Source: a virus
Length of the DNA: 29,083 bases
Reading direction: 5' to 3' (one strand)
IMG/VR virus record: IMGVR_UViG_3300035698_035448
Span: 1-29,083 of that record
The first letter of the stretch is position 1, and each line of letters begins with the position of its first letter. Of the stretch, positions 6,138 through 24,312 are shown one piece after another. A program made the translations under genes and the position numbers. The notes beneath the pieces are model-generated. The model was not told the origin of the DNA. It saw only the letters and a list, made by a program, of their open reading frames with translations, and did no database searches.

Positions 6138-7403
6138 TCAGGTCGAGCACTTCAGCAGCTTGATCGCCTCGAAGTTGACGACGCCGCCACCAACACGCTT
6201 GGTGGTGTAGAACTTGACGTTACCCTTGGAGGTGATGTCATCACGGATGACCGTGATTCCCTTGCGATCGGTGATCAGATACCCGCGCTGAAAGTTGCCG
6301 AAGGCAACCGGGAACGCGTTGGCCCCCAAAGCGGACATGTTGTCATCGGTCTCGACAGGCTTGCCGAGGATGGTGGCAGGCATGTCAACAGTCGGCGGAG
6401 ACCACAGATAGTTGTCATCGCTGCCCTTGAACTTGCGGATCGTGCCGAGCACGGCATCCGACGTCAGGAAGCTGGCACCGTTGCGGTAGCCGGCCTTCAG
6501 CGAATAGAACAGATCGATGATGGCATCGGCGGGCTTCGAGGTGGCGAAAGCTGCCGCAGCACCCGTGACCGTGAAGCCGAGCTTGCCCCAGGCATAACTG
6601 GCATTGGCGACGGTGTCGTATGCCAAGATACCGCGTGGCTTGTTCACGCCATTGCCGCTGATGAAGGCCAGGCCCTCCTCTTCGGCAAATTCGACCGAGA
6701 CCTCGTCCGCCAGCCAGGCCGCGACATCGACGATGCCATCGTCCAGCATGCGCTGGGTGGTCACCGGCTCGGCATAGATTTCACCGGCAGCGATCGTGAT
6801 CTTCGACAGAGTCGGGGTCGAGGTAGATGCGCGAGCTTCTTCCTCGCCAACCCATCCCGACGTGGTTCCGCCCAGGTTGACCAGCTTCGAATACTCGTCG
6901 GAGCTGACCTGAACGACGCGGGCGAGACCACGCATTGCCGAGACGGTCGCGAGCACGCGATCGACGGTGCCTTCCATCTCGGTCGGCACCAGGAAGCCGC
7001 CATCGGGGTCCGACTGGGTGGTCAGCTTGGCTTTCATCTGCAACTGCTTCAGGGCCTCGGGATCTCCCCCGCGGCGGAACCAGCGGTTGAAGGCATCCGA
7101 GTGAGCACGCACGTCGGCATCGATCGGCTGGCTGCCACCACCGCCCACGCGCAGCGCATCAAGCGCAGCCTTTGCATCGTTGATCGCCGTGGTCAGAGTC
7201 CCGATTTCGGCGTTGATGCGCTCGACCTTTTCGGTCTGCACACAGTCCGCCAGGCCCTTCTTGATGTCGGCCAGTTCCTTGTCACGCTCATCCTTGAACG
7301 CCTGGAAGGTCTGCTGCATTTCAGCGATGATGGTGGGCAGGTTGCCCGCATCGGCGCGCACGCCGAGGATCCCGCGCGCACGCGAGTTCAATGCAATCGT
7401 CAT
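6138..7403 (-). CDS. Major capsid protein, HK97 family
   Basis: The 421-residue product has the complete HK97 precursor layout. Residues 1-105 form the helical, charged delta/scaffold domain (FQAFKDERDKELADIKKGLA), to be removed by the protease encoded next door. The mature shell domain follows: GGFLVPTEMEGTVDRVLATV, the W-V-G-E-E-E-A segment, the G-E-I-Y-A-E-P-V-T-T-Q-R-M-L-D-D spine helix region, E-F-A-E-E-E-G-L-A-F-I-S-G-N-G-V-N-K-P-R-G-I-L, and the late T-S-D-A-V-L-G-T-I-R-K strand. The ATG at 7403 follows a GGAG site eight bases upstream. Gene order protease-capsid is standard. Confidence 0.95.
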   Translation of the reverse strand: MTIALNSRARGILGVRADAGNLPTIIAEMQQTFQAFKDERDKELADIKKGLADCVQTEKVERINAEIGTLTTAINDAKAALDALRVGGGGSQPIDADVRAHSDAFNRWFRRGGDPEALKQLQMKAKLTTQSDPDGGFLVPTEMEGTVDRVLATVSAMRGLARVVQVSSDEYSKLVNLGGTTSGWVGEEEARASTSTPTLSKITIAAGEIYAEPVTTQRMLDDGIVDVAAWLADEVSVEFAEEEGLAFISGNGVNKPRGILAYDTVANASYAWGKLGFTVTGAAAAFATSKPADAIIDLFYSLKAGYRNGASFLTSDAVLGTIRKFKGSDDNYLWSPPTVDMPATILGKPVETDDNMSALGANAFPVAFGNFQRGYLITDRKGITVIRDDITSKGNVKFYTTKRVGGGVVNFEAIKLLKCST

Positions 7404-12809: not shown

Positions 12810-12822
12810 ATATCCCCTTGGA

Positions 12823-13095
12823 AGACAGATCAGACAGTAAGATAGTTCACCAACCTACGCACATGCGGGCGCGCACACATGACTGGAACCCGCAAAAACT
12901 GTCTGACAATCCGCCAACTGTCTGACGCTGGCTCTAGCAGCGGCTTTCAGCAGGGTGACAGTTGCAGACAGTCAGACGGATCAGCCATCGCCAACAGGGT
13001 CCGTCACCCCCTCAGACACCGCCCGACCACCCCGATCAGGCCCCGCCGCGCGGCCAAATACCAGACAGTCAGGCAAACTGTCTGAAACTGTCTGA
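12823..13095. repeat. Array of CTGTCTG(A) iteron-like repeats (candidate origin or operator array)
   Basis: This is most of the 315-base gene-free stretch between the helicase stop and the DUF6362-like start. The 7-mer CTGTCTG occurs exactly seven times: forward at 12899, 12918, 13078 and 13088, and reverse (CAGACAG) at 12831, 12965 and 13062. The fuller consensus is ACTGTCTGA. Copies at 13078 and 13088 are exactly 10 bp apart (one helical turn), and those at 12899 and 12918 are 19 bp apart. Degenerate partner copies (AGACAG at 12823, TGACAGT at 12956) sit about 10 bp from two reverse copies. Chance would give about 0.03 copies in this length. It follows the helicase and primase genes, as replication origins often do. 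Confidence 0.7.
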
Positions 13096-13124
13096 CACAA
13101 GATGTTGTGGTCGGCCTTCATGGC

Positions 13125-14699
13125 TCAATCATCCCACCCAGGCATCGGCCCAGCATCGCGCGGATCGGGCACGCCGAGGCCATCATCGGCCACCACCGGC
13201 CTTGCCGCCTGGAACAGCTCGTCACCGCCCCGCAGGCGGCATCCACGGCGATGCACGCGCCCACCATGGGACTTGAACTTGATCAGCTGCTTGTCGCCCA
13301 GCGCGCGCCCAAAGGACGTGCTGTTCATGATCCCGCGATCATCCACCCCGTTGTCGGCGCAGAATGCCTTGTAGCTGTCGAACAGCTCCTGCGCCGGCGT
13401 CACACACTTGGGGTCGCTGGTATCGACATGGTCGGCAAACCACTCACCAAAAGGGTTCGATGCCCGCCGGTAATCGTCGGTCGCCTCCCGCACGCTCGGC
13501 GGCGGCTTCAACTCGCCGGTGTTCAGCCAGGTCAACACACCATCGACCAGCCACCGCAGAACCCCGGCCTTCTCCGCCAGCAGGTCCTCCATGATGCGCT
13601 TGTTGATCGCCTCATCCTTGAACTGGTGCGGAAACATGATGACGATGATGCGCCGCCAGATGCCGTCGTCATCGCCGCTCACACGCGGCTTGCGATTGCA
13701 CTGGAAGAAGATCTTGCACCGCGGGTCGAAGGTGAACGGCGCGCCGTGCAGCTCGCGCGCCTGAATCGGCTCGCCGCCGGTGATGTCCTTGATCCGGCTT
13801 TCGTCCAGCATCCCGCCCACCTTGGGCTCTGCCGTGGTCACCAGGCGGGTGTCACCGGCCAACCGCGCCAGATCGGGCGTGGCATCGGCGCCAGAGCGCA
13901 GCGCGCCCGCCATGAAGGTCTGCACGTCGCTCTTGGTGGCATAGCCGCCCAATGTCTCGCGCAGCACGTTCATGCAGGTCGACTTGCCGTCACCGCCCTT
14001 GCCCTGCAGGATGAAGATCACCTGCTCGCGGATGCTGCCCGTGGCTCCATAGCCCGCACAGGCCTGAAAGAACGCCCGCACTGCCGGGTCAGGCAGCACG
14101 GTCGCCATGTGCGCGTCCCAGGTCGGGCAACCGGCATCCGGGTGCATCGCATCCAGCCACTCGGCATCGGCAACCCGGCTGATCATGTCCGCGGGGTCAT
14201 GCGGATCCCGGCGCACCTTCCATTGGCCATCGCTCTCGAAGAACCGCAAGGTCCCATTGGCCACGTTGATCGCCAGCGGATCACGGTCAAAGTCGTCGCG
14301 CGTGGCAAACATCAGGTTCTGCGCCTGCATCAGCATCGCCGCCGTCTTGTTGGCGTTGCCGCTCATCACGGCATGCTTGAACAGCGCCGTCGCGCGCTCT
14401 TCCCACCGGCCCACCTGGTCCTTCTGCACCCGCCCATCCTCGATTTCGGCCAGTATCGCACCAGCCTCGGCGCTGATATGCAACGCGACCTCGTGCGCGG
14501 TCAGGTGGGCGAGCCGCTTGCCGTCTTCACGGCTCCAACGGCGGCCGTCATAGCCCTGCCAGTGATCATCCACCCACAACAGCTTGCCGCCCGCCAGATC
14601 GCGCAGACGCCGGGCATTGCCCAGGTCAGAAAGCTCGTACCACGCCATTTTCAGCGGGTCGGCCACCGGAACCGCGATAGGACCCTGCACATCATTCAT
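13125..14699 (-). CDS. P4/D5-type phage primase-helicase, ATPase part
   Basis: The 524-residue product is a superfamily 3 helicase of the phage/plasmid (P4 alpha / poxvirus D5) type. Residues 1-200 hold the D5 N-terminal region (including D-D-F-D-R-D-P-L-A-I-N-V-A-N-G-T-L). The ATPase follows: Walker A G-K-G-G-D-G-K-S-T at 233-241, the A-E-P-K segment near 290, S-R-I-K-D-I-T-G-G-E-P-I (SF3 motif, 301-312), sensor-1 Asn in F-Q-C-N-R-K-P near 335 and the arginine finger in I-W-R-R near 349. The C-terminal region (430-480) is winged-helix-like. It has no primase domain of its own; that is supplied by the separate gene at 15142-16353. The start overlaps the GapR-like gene by four bases. Confidence 0.92.
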   Translation of the reverse strand: MNDVQGPIAVPVADPLKMAWYELSDLGNARRLRDLAGGKLLWVDDHWQGYDGRRWSREDGKRLAHLTAHEVALHISAEAGAILAEIEDGRVQKDQVGRWEERATALFKHAVMSGNANKTAAMLMQAQNLMFATRDDFDRDPLAINVANGTLRFFESDGQWKVRRDPHDPADMISRVADAEWLDAMHPDAGCPTWDAHMATVLPDPAVRAFFQACAGYGATGSIREQVIFILQGKGGDGKSTCMNVLRETLGGYATKSDVQTFMAGALRSGADATPDLARLAGDTRLVTTAEPKVGGMLDESRIKDITGGEPIQARELHGAPFTFDPRCKIFFQCNRKPRVSGDDDGIWRRIIVIMFPHQFKDEAINKRIMEDLLAEKAGVLRWLVDGVLTWLNTGELKPPPSVREATDDYRRASNPFGEWFADHVDTSDPKCVTPAQELFDSYKAFCADNGVDDRGIMNSTSFGRALGDKQLIKFKSHGGRVHRRGCRLRGGDELFQAARPVVADDGLGVPDPRDAGPMPGWDD

Positions 14700-15145
14700 C
14701 GTGTTACGCTCCGGTTTTCGTTATCATTTCCGCCATCGATCGCACGGCGGGCGGCAGCGGCCTGGTCGGCCAGCGCGCGCACGGTCTGGGTGCGCTTGGT
14801 CAGCTTCTTCGCCGCCTGCGGATCGCCGACAAACTGCGCCATCAGCGCCTTATCGCGGGCCTGCGCCATCAGCGCGTCCAGCCCGATTCCCCCCATGCCC
14901 ACCGCTTCGGAATACAGCTCGATCAGGCTCAACCGCTCGAGCAGCGCATCCTGCCCATGCTTGTCGGCAAAAGCGCGCTGCTTGATCACGTCCATCACCG
15001 CACCGGGGCTGAACCCGAACGCCTTCGCCTCGGACTTCACATCGGCGATATCGGCGTTGATCGACTTGCGATCCTCGATCAGCCGCTCGATTCGCTCCAC
15101 AAAGGCGCGCAGCTGCGCCTCGGCATGGTCTGCCCCACTGCTCAC
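14696..15145 (-). CDS. GapR-like (DUF2312) DNA-binding protein
   Basis: Starting at a GTG at 15145 (after a GAGGTG site, overlapping the primase stop by four bases), the product is 149 residues. Residues 7-48 carry the GapR signature: Q-L-R-A-F-V-E-R-I-E-R-L-I-E-D-R-K-S-I-N-A-D-I-A-D-V-K-S-E-A-K-A-F-G-F. Caulobacter GapR is a small nucleoid protein that clamps overtwisted DNA ahead of replication forks and stimulates topoisomerases. The 65-residue C-terminal extension (ending R-R-A-I-D-G-G-N-D-N-E) is longer than cellular GapR (about 90 residues). It lies between phage primase and helicase, so a role at the phage fork is likely. Longer upstream reading in this frame lacks a supported start. 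Confidence 0.85.
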   Translation of the reverse strand: MSSGADHAEAQLRAFVERIERLIEDRKSINADIADVKSEAKAFGFSPGAVMDVIKQRAFADKHGQDALLERLSLIELYSEAVGMGGIGLDALMAQARDKALMAQFVGDPQAAKKLTKRTQTVRALADQAAAARRAIDGGNDNENRSVTR

Positions 15146-16353
15146 GCCGCACCTCGAAGAACATCGTTGAAATCCGCACCCATCCGGGGCCGGATCGCTT
15201 CCACCGGCCACGCCCCGGCACGCCGCCAGTGCTGCACCGCCAGTGTCGCGCAGATGCGCGCGCGCTCTGCCCCGCTGACATCGCCGACGCCGCTCTTCTC
15301 GCCACGCGCCCGCTGGATTCGCCGGTGCAGCAACGGCTTCATGTCGGCATCGATCGCCACGATCACATGGCCCGGCTGCGCCACCACCATCGGTGGCCGC
15401 TCCGCATCGGCCTGCAAGTTCCACAGCGGAAGCGCCCCGTCGCGCGCCCGCACCGCGCCGCCTTCCAGATTGCCCAGCGACAGCGCCGCCGCCATGCGCC
15501 CTGCCCTGCCATCCATGCAGGCAGCAGAAATCGTGCTTTCGATGCCCTCACCCACCAGCAATGGCCTGCGATCCCCTTCCGGCGCATCCACCGGCCCCAG
15601 CCACACGCCGCCGCCGGCAACGTCGCCAAACATCTTGCGCGTCGGCACCGCGCGCCCGTCGCGGGTCTTGCCCAGAGCAGCCTTGGCGCGCCCGTGCGGT
15701 GCCAGATAGGTCACATGAACCCCCATCGGCACCCGCACACGGGCACCGGATGGCCCCTCGATCCGTTCGATCAGCGCCAGCATCGCCGGATGCGTCCCCA
15801 TCAGCGCCTCGGGCCGTTCATGCACAGCCCAGGACCACACCGGGCAGCGCGGGTGATAGCGCAGCGCGCAAAGCGCCTGCCGCACAAGCGGGTGGGCAAG
15901 GTCCAGCCCGCGCGCCGCCAGCCAGTTCTCTACGATCTCACCCTCGGCAGGAAAAGACGTGCACCACATCCACTGCGCACATTCGATCGTCGGCACACGC
16001 AACGCATCGCGCTCCGGCGCAGCCCGCTCCAGCTCGGCACGCGGCGTCGCGCTCTCGCGCGCAAGAGTGACCCCCGCCTCATCGGAAAGCCGCCGCACCG
16101 CCTCGACAAAATCGACGCCCTGGTGCTGCATCACGAAGTCAATTACCCCGCCATGCGCCGAGCAGCCAAAACAGTGATACATCGCCTTGTCGTCGTTCAC
16201 GGTGAAGCTGGGCGTGCGCTCCTGATGGAACGGGCAAAGCCCCACAAACTCCCGCCCCCGCCGCGCCAACTTGACCACCTGGCCGACCACGCGCGACACC
16301 GGCACCCGCGCCTTGATATCGGCAATCGCCGAAGGATCGATGCGCCCACTCAT
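15142..16353 (-). CDS. DNA primase, CHC2 zinc finger plus Toprim
   Basis: With the ATG at 16353 (MSGRIDPSAIADIKARVPVS), which overlaps the previous stop by four bases, the product is 403 residues. The zinc finger is of the DnaG CHC2 type: C40-P-F-H43 and C61-F-G-C64. A later region holds a Toprim fold: L-L-V-G-E-G-I-E-S-T (the Glu) and V-I-V-A-I-D-A-D (the D-x-D). It is shorter than host DnaG (about 600 residues) and lacks the DnaB-binding C-terminus, as is usual for phage primases that pair with a P4/D5-type helicase, encoded two genes downstream. Confidence 0.9.
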   Translation of the reverse strand: MSGRIDPSAIADIKARVPVSRVVGQVVKLARRGREFVGLCPFHQERTPSFTVNDDKAMYHCFGCSAHGGVIDFVMQHQGVDFVEAVRRLSDEAGVTLARESATPRAELERAAPERDALRVPTIECAQWMWCTSFPAEGEIVENWLAARGLDLAHPLVRQALCALRYHPRCPVWSWAVHERPEALMGTHPAMLALIERIEGPSGARVRVPMGVHVTYLAPHGRAKAALGKTRDGRAVPTRKMFGDVAGGGVWLGPVDAPEGDRRPLLVGEGIESTISAACMDGRAGRMAAALSLGNLEGGAVRARDGALPLWNLQADAERPPMVVAQPGHVIVAIDADMKPLLHRRIQRARGEKSGVGDVSGAERARICATLAVQHWRRAGAWPVEAIRPRMGADFNDVLRGAA

Positions 16354-17015
16354 GCTGCCATCTCCCGCTCGCCCGCGCCGATCAGCGGGGCCCATTGCGC
16401 GGCCATGGCCGCTGCGATTCCGTGATAGGTCTGGCTGCGCCGGCGTGCCCGGTCAGGCCCCGGCCGTTCGCGGTGGCACCGAGACCACGCCTTGTGCTCT
16501 GCCGTTCCCGGCGCAGGCGGCGTCAGCATGTCGGTGGGCACCAGACGCGGCAGTTCGATCAGCTCGAGGCCGGTGTTCTTGAAGAACGGCTCGCCGAAGA
16601 AATAGGGGTGCACGAACTGGACAGGCCCACGCTCGACCAGCGCGATCGCATGGCCATGCATCACCGGGTTCTCGATCGCGCGGCGCGGGATCTGCGCTGC
16701 ATCGCGCAGCCGCCGATAGAACGCCGCCGCCGCTTCCAGCTCGGCCCAGCGCGCCGGGTTGCGCCCATTCGCCTTGCGCCCGCCGAGGTAAAGATGCTTC
16801 GCCCCGCTGTTGCACAGGATCGTGCACGGCGGGTGCGCCACCATCAGCAGGTCCCAGCCATCATCCAAATGATCGAGCACATCGCCGGTGATGTGCCTGT
16901 TGCTGCCGTCATCGGCAGGCATGGTGTCGCATGACCATGCATCGCACCCCTGCGCCTCGAAAGCGCGCCGAACGACGCCGCTGCGCTCGCACGCGACCAG
17001 AACACGCCCCGCCAT
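16350..17015 (-). CDS. C5-cytosine methyltransferase-like protein
   Basis: With ATG at 17015 (M-A-G-R-V-L-V-A-C-E-R-S-G) the product is 221 residues. The first strand V-L-V-A-C-E-x-S-G-V-V-R-x-A-F is the AdoMet-site motif of a compact C5-methyltransferase-like family. The catalytic-type P-P-C is present in M-V-A-H-P-P-C-T-I-L near residue 62, and an E-N-P motif (A-I-E-N-P, near 116) fits motif VI. The later G-E-P-F-F-K-N-T-G-L-E-L-I-E-L-P-R-L-V-P-T is a conserved family segment. Half the size of HhaI-type enzymes, it lacks a clear target-recognition domain, so activity and target are uncertain. Protection of phage DNA is a reasonable role. Confidence 0.72.
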   Translation of the reverse strand: MAGRVLVACERSGVVRRAFEAQGCDAWSCDTMPADDGSNRHITGDVLDHLDDGWDLLMVAHPPCTILCNSGAKHLYLGGRKANGRNPARWAELEAAAAFYRRLRDAAQIPRRAIENPVMHGHAIALVERGPVQFVHPYFFGEPFFKNTGLELIELPRLVPTDMLTPPAPGTAEHKAWSRCHRERPGPDRARRRSQTYHGIAAAMAAQWAPLIGAGEREMAA

Positions 17016-23155: not shown

Positions 23156-23473
23156 TCATTCCGCCGCCTCCGCCTGGGGGGAAACGTCGGCAGAGCTTCC
23201 CGGTGACAGCGGCGCGGTCGGCCCAGTAAGACCCAATACATGCAGAAACTCGCATGCCTCTTCAGGAACATTCTCGCCGGGCCAATGTGCAGGCGTGGCA
23301 AAGAACTGCGCGAACTTCTCCAATGTTCCATCCGTGACACCTGCCTTCGGCTGACGCAGGCGCTCAAAAAATCCGCCGTCGTTCATCACCACGGTGGCAA
23401 GCCGCGCCAAGGATCTATCGTTGGCATGACACCACCGATCCGCGAGCCGACGAAGTCTGGTTTTGAGTTTCAA
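23156..23473 (-). CDS. Cro-like HTH regulator
   Basis: I take the TTG at 23473 as start, seven bases after a GGAG site, giving 105 residues (M-K-L-K-T-R-L-R-R-L-A-D-R-W-C). The HTH-like part is R-S-L-A-R-L-A-T-V-V-M-N-D-G-G-F-F-E-R-L-R, followed by T-L-E-K-F-A-Q-F-F-A-T-P-A-H-W-P-G. This is a recurring alphaproteobacterial phage type that lies divergent to S24 repressors. Reading further upstream would run through operator O1 and the -35 box. The divergent position across three operators makes it the analogue of lambda Cro. Confidence 0.72.
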   Translation of the reverse strand: MKLKTRLRRLADRWCHANDRSLARLATVVMNDGGFFERLRQPKAGVTDGTLEKFAQFFATPAHWPGENVPEEACEFLHVLGLTGPTAPLSPGSSADVSPQAEAAE

Positions 23474-23504
23474 TGGATCGCTCCGCAGTGATGAACGCGG
23501 CAAC

Positions 23505-23533
23505 TGATGCGGGAATTTACCCGCCTGTGTCAA
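23505..23533 (-). promoter_or_regulatory. Putative leftward early promoter (Cro-like/CII operon)
   Basis: A perfect -35 box TTGACA lies on the minus strand at 23533-23528, followed by a 17-base spacer and GCATCA (23510-23505), a poor -10 match. Operator O1 covers the spacer and O2 touches the -35 box, so repressor bound at these sites would block it. This is the analogue of lambda PR for this phage. Confidence 0.6.
23509..23524. promoter_or_regulatory. Repressor operator O1
   Basis: GCGGGAATTTACCCGC fits the consensus GCGGG-N6-CCCGC shared by five sites in the immunity region. It lies in the spacer of the leftward promoter, nearest the Cro-like gene. Confidence 0.75.
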
Positions 23534-23548
23534 CGGGTTTTTTCCCGC
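23533..23548. promoter_or_regulatory. Repressor operator O2
   Basis: ACGGGTTTTTTCCCGC, read on the minus strand GCGGGAAAAAACCCGT, fits the shared operator consensus with the same A-tract centre as O4 and O5. It touches the -35 box of the leftward promoter. Its centre is 24 bp from O1 and 35 bp from O3. Confidence 0.75.
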
Positions 23549-23567
23549 ATGACTTGGCAGTAATTGC

Positions 23568-23583
23568 GCGGGATAATCCCCGC
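23568..23583. promoter_or_regulatory. Repressor operator O3, abutting the repressor start codon
   Basis: GCGGGATAATCCCCGC fits the operator consensus and ends at the base before the repressor ATG at 23584. It contains GATAAT (23572-23577), a 5/6 match to a -10 box that would place the transcript start at or next to the ATG. Binding here would repress the repressor's own promoter. Confidence 0.75.
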
Positions 23584-24312
23584 ATGTCCCAAGTCATTGA
23601 TTTTTATCAGCGCCTCGATCAGCGACGCGACGAAAAAGGCTTTACGGACCGCTCTCTTTCGATGGCGGTGACAGGGAAGCCCGATCTGATCCGTGACGGC
23701 AAAAAGCGCCAACGGCTGCCGTCAGGAAACAATCTGGTCAAGGTCGCCGAAGTGCTCGAAGTCTCGGTCGACTGGCTTACAGGCAAGGATGCACTGGCGA
23801 TCCCCTCCGACGTCCGGATCGCCGACCCAACCATCCCGTTTCAGGCATTCCCCTCGGGCCGGCGCAATGAAACGCTTCCCGTACTGGGCACCGCGCATGG
23901 CGGCACGGTCATCTATCAGGATACAGCTGGCGATGACGCCGATGTCGAACAGACCCTTTTCGAACCCACCCAGGTGGTCCGCTATGTCACACGCCCGCCC
24001 GCATTGAACGGCGCCGACGAGGCCTACGCGGTCTATGTCGAGGGCGAATCGATGGACCCCCGATATCGGCCTGGTGACATGGCCGTAGTAGATCCACGCA
24101 AGCCGCCCCAGATCGGCGACGACGTGATCGTCCAGCTCAGCGAGAACGGCCACGACGAAATCTGCGCGATCCTGATCAAGACGCTGGCACGCCGATCACC
24201 CGATTTTATCGAGCTTTTACAGTATAATCCGCCGCTAAGGTTCAGGGTGGATTCGCGCCGGGTTCGCCGCATGCATCGCATCATGTCTCAAGGCGACCTG
24301 CTCGGCGGATAG
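23584..24312 (+). CDS. Phage repressor, HTH plus S24 LexA-like peptidase
   Basis: From the ATG at 23584 the product is 242 residues. Residues 15-66 form an HTH domain (L-V-K-V-A-E-V-L-E-V-S-V-D-W-L-T-G). The C-terminal S24 domain has the nucleophile in E-G-E-S156-M-D-P-R-Y-R-P-G-D and the Lys in I-L-I-K199. The usual cleavage position reads T-A-H-G-G near residue 103 instead of the common Ala-Gly, so RecA-stimulated self-cleavage may be altered. Longer reading from 23473 would cross all three operators, and O3 abuts the ATG, so the mRNA is probably leaderless, as is lambda cI from PRM. It maintains lysogeny by binding the five operators. Confidence 0.9.
   Translation: MSQVIDFYQRLDQRRDEKGFTDRSLSMAVTGKPDLIRDGKKRQRLPSGNNLVKVAEVLEVSVDWLTGKDALAIPSDVRIADPTIPFQAFPSGRRNETLPVLGTAHGGTVIYQDTAGDDADVEQTLFEPTQVVRYVTRPPALNGADEAYAVYVEGESMDPRYRPGDMAVVDPRKPPQIGDDVIVQLSENGHDEICAILIKTLARRSPDFIELLQYNPPLRFRVDSRRVRRMHRIMSQGDLLGG

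Follow-up and report, generated by a model that had tools for sequence, protein, structure and literature searches.

The window, by which we mean the whole 29,083-base stretch of viral DNA that was analyzed, carries genes for a portal protein, a major capsid protein, a ClpP-like protease, a head-tail connector, and a terminase, together with a replication block. Because portal, capsid, protease, connector, and terminase genes are present, we regard the element as a phage rather than a phage-inducible island (PICI). The replication block lies on the minus strand and comprises, in gene direction, genes for a DNA methylase, phrog_757, a DnaG-type primase, a GapR-like protein, and a D5-type helicase. 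The helicase gene is followed by a gap of approximately 315 bp that contains an array of short repeats, and then by phrog_6836, an HNH gene, and the small (TerS) and large (TerL) terminase genes, with HNH, TerS, and TerL all falling within 1-2 kb after the array. The array begins 31 bp past the helicase stop codon and is intergenic, on the 3' side of the helicase gene, and the gap between helicase and phrog_6836 (13125 down to 12809) contains no credible gene. As called, the frames of the GapR-like protein and the primase overlap by 283 bases, and the GapR start probably lies further downstream than the longest open reading frame indicates. The coordinates of the features are given in Table 1.

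Table 1. Features of the helicase-array region (window coordinates; L016 and L008 are the two closely related loci compared with the window)
Feature	Position	Strand	Basis or remark
phrog_6836 gene downstream of array, 159 aa	12330..12809	-	called DUF6362-like in the initial annotation
Iteron array, proposed replication origin (ori)	12822..13094	.	top repeat cluster; conserved with helicase in relatives
Degenerate eighth iteron CTGTCTT (AAGACAG on plus strand), 9 bp from iteron 7	12822..12828	-	read from sequence
Iteron 7, ACTGTCTG, inverted, across core from the others	12831..12838	-	kept in L016, L008
Central core, about 26 bp, between converging iterons	12856..12881	.	nearly invariant among window, L016, L008
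Iteron 6, ACTGTCTG, inner pair, 19 bp from iteron 5	12898..12905	+	kept in L016, L008
Iteron 5, ACTGTCTG, inner pair	12917..12924	+	kept in L016, L008
Iteron 4, ACTGTCTG	12965..12972	-	sole copy broken in relatives (ACCGTCTG / ACCATCTG)
Iteron 3, ACTGTCTG, inverted	13062..13069	-	kept in L016, L008
Iteron 2, ACTGTCTG, 10 bp from iteron 1	13077..13084	+	kept in L016, L008
Iteron 1, ACTGTCTG; CAGACAGT in gene direction	13087..13094	+	kept in L016, L008
D5-type SF3 helicase, 524 aa, proposed self-loading initiator	13125..14699	-	Pfam
Predicted C-terminal winged helix, residues 436-490, proposed iteron reader	13230..13394	-	model and covariation
GapR-like gene	14696..15424	-	not needed for array
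DnaG-type primase (CHC2 zinc ribbon), probable partner	15142..16395	-	

The repeat array, its core, and the adjacent helicase

Within the array, from 12831 to 13094, ACTGTCTG occurs as an exact match seven times, and it has no exact match in the rest of the window. This 8-mer is the true repeat unit and is longer than the 7-mer CTGTCTG with which the array was originally described. A recount confirmed seven copies of the 7-mer, four forward and three reverse, in a gene-free stretch of 265 bp, with starts at 12831(-), 12899(+), 12918(+), 12965(-), 13062(-), 13078(+), and 13088(+). Dinucleotide shuffles place the chance level of CTGTCTG at 3.17 copies per 29 kb, or approximately 0.03 per 265 bp, which is the value that the initial annotation had given. 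When all 6-8-mers were scanned across the window, the array came out as the top cluster (log10 p of -19.1, with the runner-up at -6.8), a margin of twelve orders of magnitude. The copies at 13078 and 13088 are spaced by 10 bp and those at 12899 and 12918 by 19 bp, as had been reported; 19 bp is slightly under two helical turns.

Read in gene direction, the outer part of the array is a pair of iterons 10 bp apart followed by an inverted iteron, a spacer, and the inverted iteron 4, and the inner part is a pair 19 bp apart followed by the core and by an inverted iteron with the degenerate copy. The core is flanked by iterons, with six copies to one side of it and a single copy plus the degenerate one to the other, and the core-adjacent iterons on both sides converge on it. 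When the window is compared with L016 and L008, 54 of 56 iteron columns are identical, as against 147 of 236 of the remaining columns (Fisher p 4e-8). From the inner pair through the last iteron, the sequence is nearly invariant in this comparison, and ATCTGTCTT at the degenerate iteron is identical in both relatives. Immediately beside the outer iteron, at 13096-13109, lies the near-perfect palindrome CACAAGATGTTGTG, which L016 and L008 keep as ACAACATSTTGT; no second copy occurs in the window at two or fewer mismatches.

The core is made up of two alternating purine-pyrimidine runs, GCGCGCACACATG at 12869-12881 and TACGCACATGCG at 12856-12867. The 13-nt run of the window is modestly unusual (p 0.03-0.04) and ranks fifth in the window. 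Among 33 non-redundant arrays, the longest alternating run of the locus falls inside the array in 16, compared with 1.1 expected, and 19 arrays exceed their dinucleotide shuffles for such a run at p<0.05. Runs in arrays reach 29 nt, they occur at the matching place in approximately 60% of related arrays, and they vary in sequence from array to array (e.g., CACACATGCGTGCGCGCGCATGCGCA and CATGTGTGCGTATACATATA). The CGGACA and TGCTCCA clades lack a run, which leads us to reject the alternating core as a universal feature and to regard it as a frequent, non-universal element that may help strand opening. The array of the window has no AT-rich tract, the lowest GC content of any 30-bp segment being 43% and the center being GC-rich and alternating; several related arrays do contain AT-rich stretches. 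We also considered an element resembling GCGGATTTCTGCGGGTT, found between the iterons of L025, L026, L029, L032, L039, L041, L048, and L054 (the CCTTCC/TGCTCCA group), as a conserved core-side element and rejected it, as it is confined to this one group of relatives and is absent from the window.

Other sequence-level signals were sought at the array. A GC-skew check, which had been proposed in the initial annotation, found no turning point there; the skew is negative almost throughout the window and is uninformative as an origin signal. The array has no structured-RNA match in Rfam, and a search for a plasmid relative found none.

The helicase matches the Pfam families D5_N (1.4e-17) and DUF5906 (3.1e-10). 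An AlphaFold model of the protein, built from 40 relatives, has a mean pLDDT of 85.6, and its whole fold matches D5/SF3 primase-helicases. The C-terminus of the model has a helix-helix-wing arrangement, with helices at residues 436-449 and 460-469 and strands at 473-476 and 482-485. In this model, helix 460-469 (13293-13322) is likely to be the recognition helix. A profile search matched PDB entry 7ola, titled 'DNA primase' (E 1.3e-15, profile positions 208-497), which we take to be SaPI5 Rep. The P4 alpha origin-binding domain gave no direct sequence match among the PDB matches.

Arrays after related helicases

Using the helicase and its alignment as queries, we collected 42 viral and 9 genome loci; a first scan of genome contigs with the single helicase protein had returned no matches. 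The repeat scan of 49 loci was blind to the expected position of the array. In all but three of the 49, the strongest cluster starts between -82 bp and +135 bp of the helicase stop codon, and in the exceptions (L018, L051, and L066) the array lies 0.9-1.1 kb further on. A lack of conservation in related phages, which the initial annotation had named as a refuting outcome, was therefore not what the scan showed. With the later loci L084, L085, and L086 included, six loci have an array 0.86-1.1 kb past the helicase, and the sequences of L018 and L051 suggest that a gene has been inserted between helicase and array.

The same script was then applied to a second set of 60 loci, retrieved by a helicase-profile search of 699 genomes from two bacterial families and containing a few duplicates of the earlier loci (e.g., L081 and L082). 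The best cluster lies right after the helicase in 43 of the 60, compared with 6.5 expected. Of 38 strong clusters, 33 are right after the helicase and the remaining five lie further downstream, and many of the weakest helicase homologs in this set are without a clear array. The same placement, with other repeats, is seen in the records of Listeria PSA, Lactobacillus CL2, Staphylococcus DSP2, and Microcystis Mae-JY28. No clear array follows the helicase in the actinophages L073, L078, and L079, in streptococcal Javan269 (L080), or in the sampled Bordetella phage.

Two further groups of repeats were noted. In Rhizobium phage RR1-A (L069), CTGTCC occurs 11 times at 6988-7316, which is 1.9 kb past the helicase and beyond an antirepressor gene; this could be an array displaced from its usual place, with a repeat that resembles that of the window. 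In L111, L112, L124, L127, L129, L136, and L139, distant helicases are followed by four repeats within approximately 100 bp (e.g., ATCCGTCA and AAGCGTCA), which could be the same type of origin in compact form.

The helicase alone is present in every locus, as expected of loci that were found via the helicase; the informative cases are those in which an array occurs and the other proteins do not. The GapR-like protein and the window-type primase have no detectable homolog in most of these loci, arrays also occur in loci without a detectable terminase homolog, and unrelated genes follow the array in other loci. As a side observation, phrog_6836 is often the first gene past the proposed origin, irrespective of the iteron sequence (L026, L030, L039, L040, L043, L045, L046, and L048, with proteins 28-93% identical to that of the window), a placement that suggests a tie to the origin or to packaging.

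Joint change of helicase and repeat

The repeat differs from one group of helicases to another. ACTGTCTG is the repeat of the window and of relatives whose helicases are 86-87% identical to its own; GTCTGT is found in L018 and L019 (44-46%), and CGGACA (TGTCCG on the other strand) in L020-L023 and L055 (38%). A large group at 28-34% identity has CCTTCCA, CCTTCCG, CTCTCCA, TGCTCCA, ACCCTCGC, or ACCCTCCC.

Comparison of whole loci reveals exchanges of the helicase together with its array. L006 and L013 share phrog_6836-HNH-TerS-TerL at 93% nucleotide identity over 3.3 kb, and their helicases and arrays are unrelated; the primase and GapR-like genes are swapped along with the helicase. L006 and L011 share the same four genes as 92% identical DNA and are also 92% identical upstream, with unrelated DNA, array included, in between. 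The aligned packaging-gene DNA amounts to 2.8-3.3 kb in these comparisons, and the helicase of L006 is approximately 31-35% identical to those of L013 and L011. The converse holds for the window and L006, which align at 82% across primase, GapR, helicase, and array, with TerS and TerL only 36-43% identical. These swaps and their converse indicate that the array is inherited together with the helicase rather than with the packaging genes.

The distance between repeat weight matrices was compared with protein distance, measured separately for each domain, in a set of 66 non-redundant helicases whose arrays were usable. The rank correlation with iteron distance is 0.45 for the N-terminal domain, 0.52 for the ATPase domain, and 0.60 for the C-terminal domain (Mantel, n=66), values that are measured on a phylogeny, with shared ancestry left in by the permutation, and that do not amount to proof of contact. 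In partial Mantel tests, the C-terminal domain retains 0.36 given the ATPase domain (p=0.001), and the ATPase domain retains 0.07 given the C-terminal domain (p=0.13). When the winged-helix stretch 441-490 alone is used as the control, the ATPase domain retains 0.29, indicating that the whole C-terminal region, not just the wing, carries the signal. The contrast between domains within one protein is informative despite shared ancestry. Predicted recognition helices that have K/R at the two positions after F/L/M go with AAGG or GGAAG repeats in 23 of 24 cases, compared with 2 of 8 for helices without them, in a test restricted to alignable helices, uncorrected for phylogeny, and with a split chosen after seeing the table; we regard this apparent association as a lead only.

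A candidate replication origin and its relatives

We consider it probable, at roughly 87%, that the array is the replication origin of the phage and that it is read by the adjacent helicase. This reading draws on the position of the array, its conservation, the module swaps, and the C-domain covariation, all of which were computed here, and it is in line with the initial annotation, whose suggestion of an origin with iterons is now strongly supported by the family-wide occurrence of arrays after the helicase, their joint exchange, and the covariation. Binding of the iterons, ring assembly, melting, and firing we infer from relatives of the helicase family. By that analogy, the D5-type helicase would bind the ACTGTCTG iterons via its C-terminal winged-helix domain. 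The iteron sets face the core from its two flanks, which would allow a pair of helicase rings to assemble head to head; these rings would open the core and launch bidirectional forks, and the DnaG-type primase of the phage would make the primers. Helicase and iterons would then constitute a single module, passed between phages as a whole, whose two parts change specificity together.

The initial annotation had also proposed an operator array for late control or a packaging site, given the position ahead of the DUF6362-like and packaging genes. In favor of operators, the array has the replication genes on one side and the packaging operon on the other, with a gene start immediately downstream. 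Short repeats in both orientations would suit a regulator of the phrog_6836-led operon, one that was itself inherited with the replication module by chance, and an origin may also overlap a promoter. However, no sigma-70-type promoter was found at the array, phrog_6836 remains 78-93% identical in relatives whose iterons differ completely, and no exact copy of the repeat lies elsewhere in the window, such as near the S24 repressor gene (23473-24312). The variety of genes that follow the array in other loci, where the helicase is the sole common gene, and the specific tracking of the helicase C-domain by the iterons also argue against operators, and we consider this explanation quite unlikely. 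A cos or pac site bound by the small terminase would account for the proximity of HNH, TerS, and TerL, and cosB-type sites can hold repeats. Such a site should not combine near-identical arrays with terminases as divergent as those of the window and its same-iteron relatives, nor near-identical packaging genes with unrelated repeats as in L006 and L013, and arrays are present where no terminase homolog is detectable in the locus. We therefore rejected the packaging site, which is not co-inherited with the terminase genes, and assign it a negligible probability.

It is also conceivable that the array is an origin whose reader is the primase, the GapR-like protein, or an unrecognized small protein, with the helicase recruited second. 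The exchange of the primase and GapR-like genes along with the helicase between L006 and L013 is consistent with this arrangement. As a universal reader, however, the GapR-like protein, the window-type primase, and phrog_6836 were each rejected, as they are undetectable in many array loci; the GapR-like and DUF6362-like proteins, both named as candidate binders in the initial annotation, are accordingly not the common factor. Iteron divergence is better explained by the C-domain of the helicase than by its ATPase domain, and published relatives bind via the helicase C-terminus (PMC7581432). We regard a reader other than the helicase as improbable.

Several consequences follow from a helicase-read origin. 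Looking just after a D5-type helicase gene would be a rule by which probable origins of many uncultured viruses and prophages are located from sequence, and the many natural pairs of helix and repeat make a change of initiator origin specificity testable. Such origins can act as decoys against infecting phages, as reported for Sfi21 (PMC6356513). A PICI-like origin layout, which has been called unique to phage-inducible islands (PMC6092414), would extend to capsid-encoding phages, and the origins of capsid phages bear on the source of the islands' replication modules. We can offer a wider proposal only tentatively and regard it as somewhat doubtful: alphaproteobacterial temperate phages may have PICI-like origins in which winged helix and iteron evolve as a readable code (more than ten distinct iteron sequences among the 66 non-redundant helicases), with opening often by a Z-DNA-prone alternating core that is conserved in pattern rather than sequence and replaces the AT-rich element.

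Among known origins, the lambda type differs in having its iterons inside the initiator (O) gene, whereas the array described here is intergenic. P4 alpha and archaeal pRN1 have a helicase with a C-terminal winged helix that acts at the origin (PMC4234260). In P4, however, primase and helicase are fused, and the essential region 3' of the pRN1 gene (PMC4234260) differs in being a 100-nt stem-loop with no iterons. In the PLE of Vibrio cholerae, origin and DNA-binding domain are exchanged and work only in matching pairs, as tested by swaps (PMC8263062). The covariation and modular exchange of DNA-binding domain and origin are thus shared with PLE RepA, although RepA is a RepA_N initiator unrelated to D5 helicases and its iterons are semi-palindromes of approximately 30 bp.

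Closer parallels come from D5-family helicases. The C-terminal domain (400-538) of SCCmec Cch2 binds a putative origin directly downstream of its own gene, and binding by the full protein depends on direct repeats (PMC7581432). Cch2 differs in having only three iterons, AAGTG, and its origin is known in that work from binding, not from in vivo replication. In Streptococcus thermophilus phage Sfi21, a 302-bp non-coding origin lies directly after a homologous 'putative primase' gene; it is annotated in record NC_000872 at 34487-34784, starting at the end of that gene, and the same repeat scan finds AGTAAC nine times in it. This origin is activated by infection and confers phage resistance (PMC6356513), and it differs from that of the window in its repeat, its AT-rich center, and its Firmicutes host.

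The closest resemblance is to the SaPI/PICI origins. SaPI Rep recognizes a downstream iteron origin via its C-terminal domain (PMC7581432), and in PICIs the origin follows rep immediately on its 3' side and has an AT-rich center flanked by two sets of iterons, an organization that no other known bacterial replicon was said to share in 2018 (PMC6092414). The loci collected here speak against that exclusivity. The window resembles the islands in several respects: its proposed origin directly follows, on the 3' side, the gene of the putative initiator helicase; its short iterons form two sets with a center between them; and its helicase is a sequence-related D5-family SF3 protein with a C-terminal recognition domain, which in the helicase of the window is predicted. 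In contrast to the islands, the system of the window occurs in phages that encode capsid, portal, and terminase, its phage has a separate DnaG-type primase gene, and its center is GC-rich with alternating purines and pyrimidines rather than AT-rich. Since the element is a phage and its center is not AT-rich, we regard the proposed origin of the window as a variant, not a member, of the PICI type.
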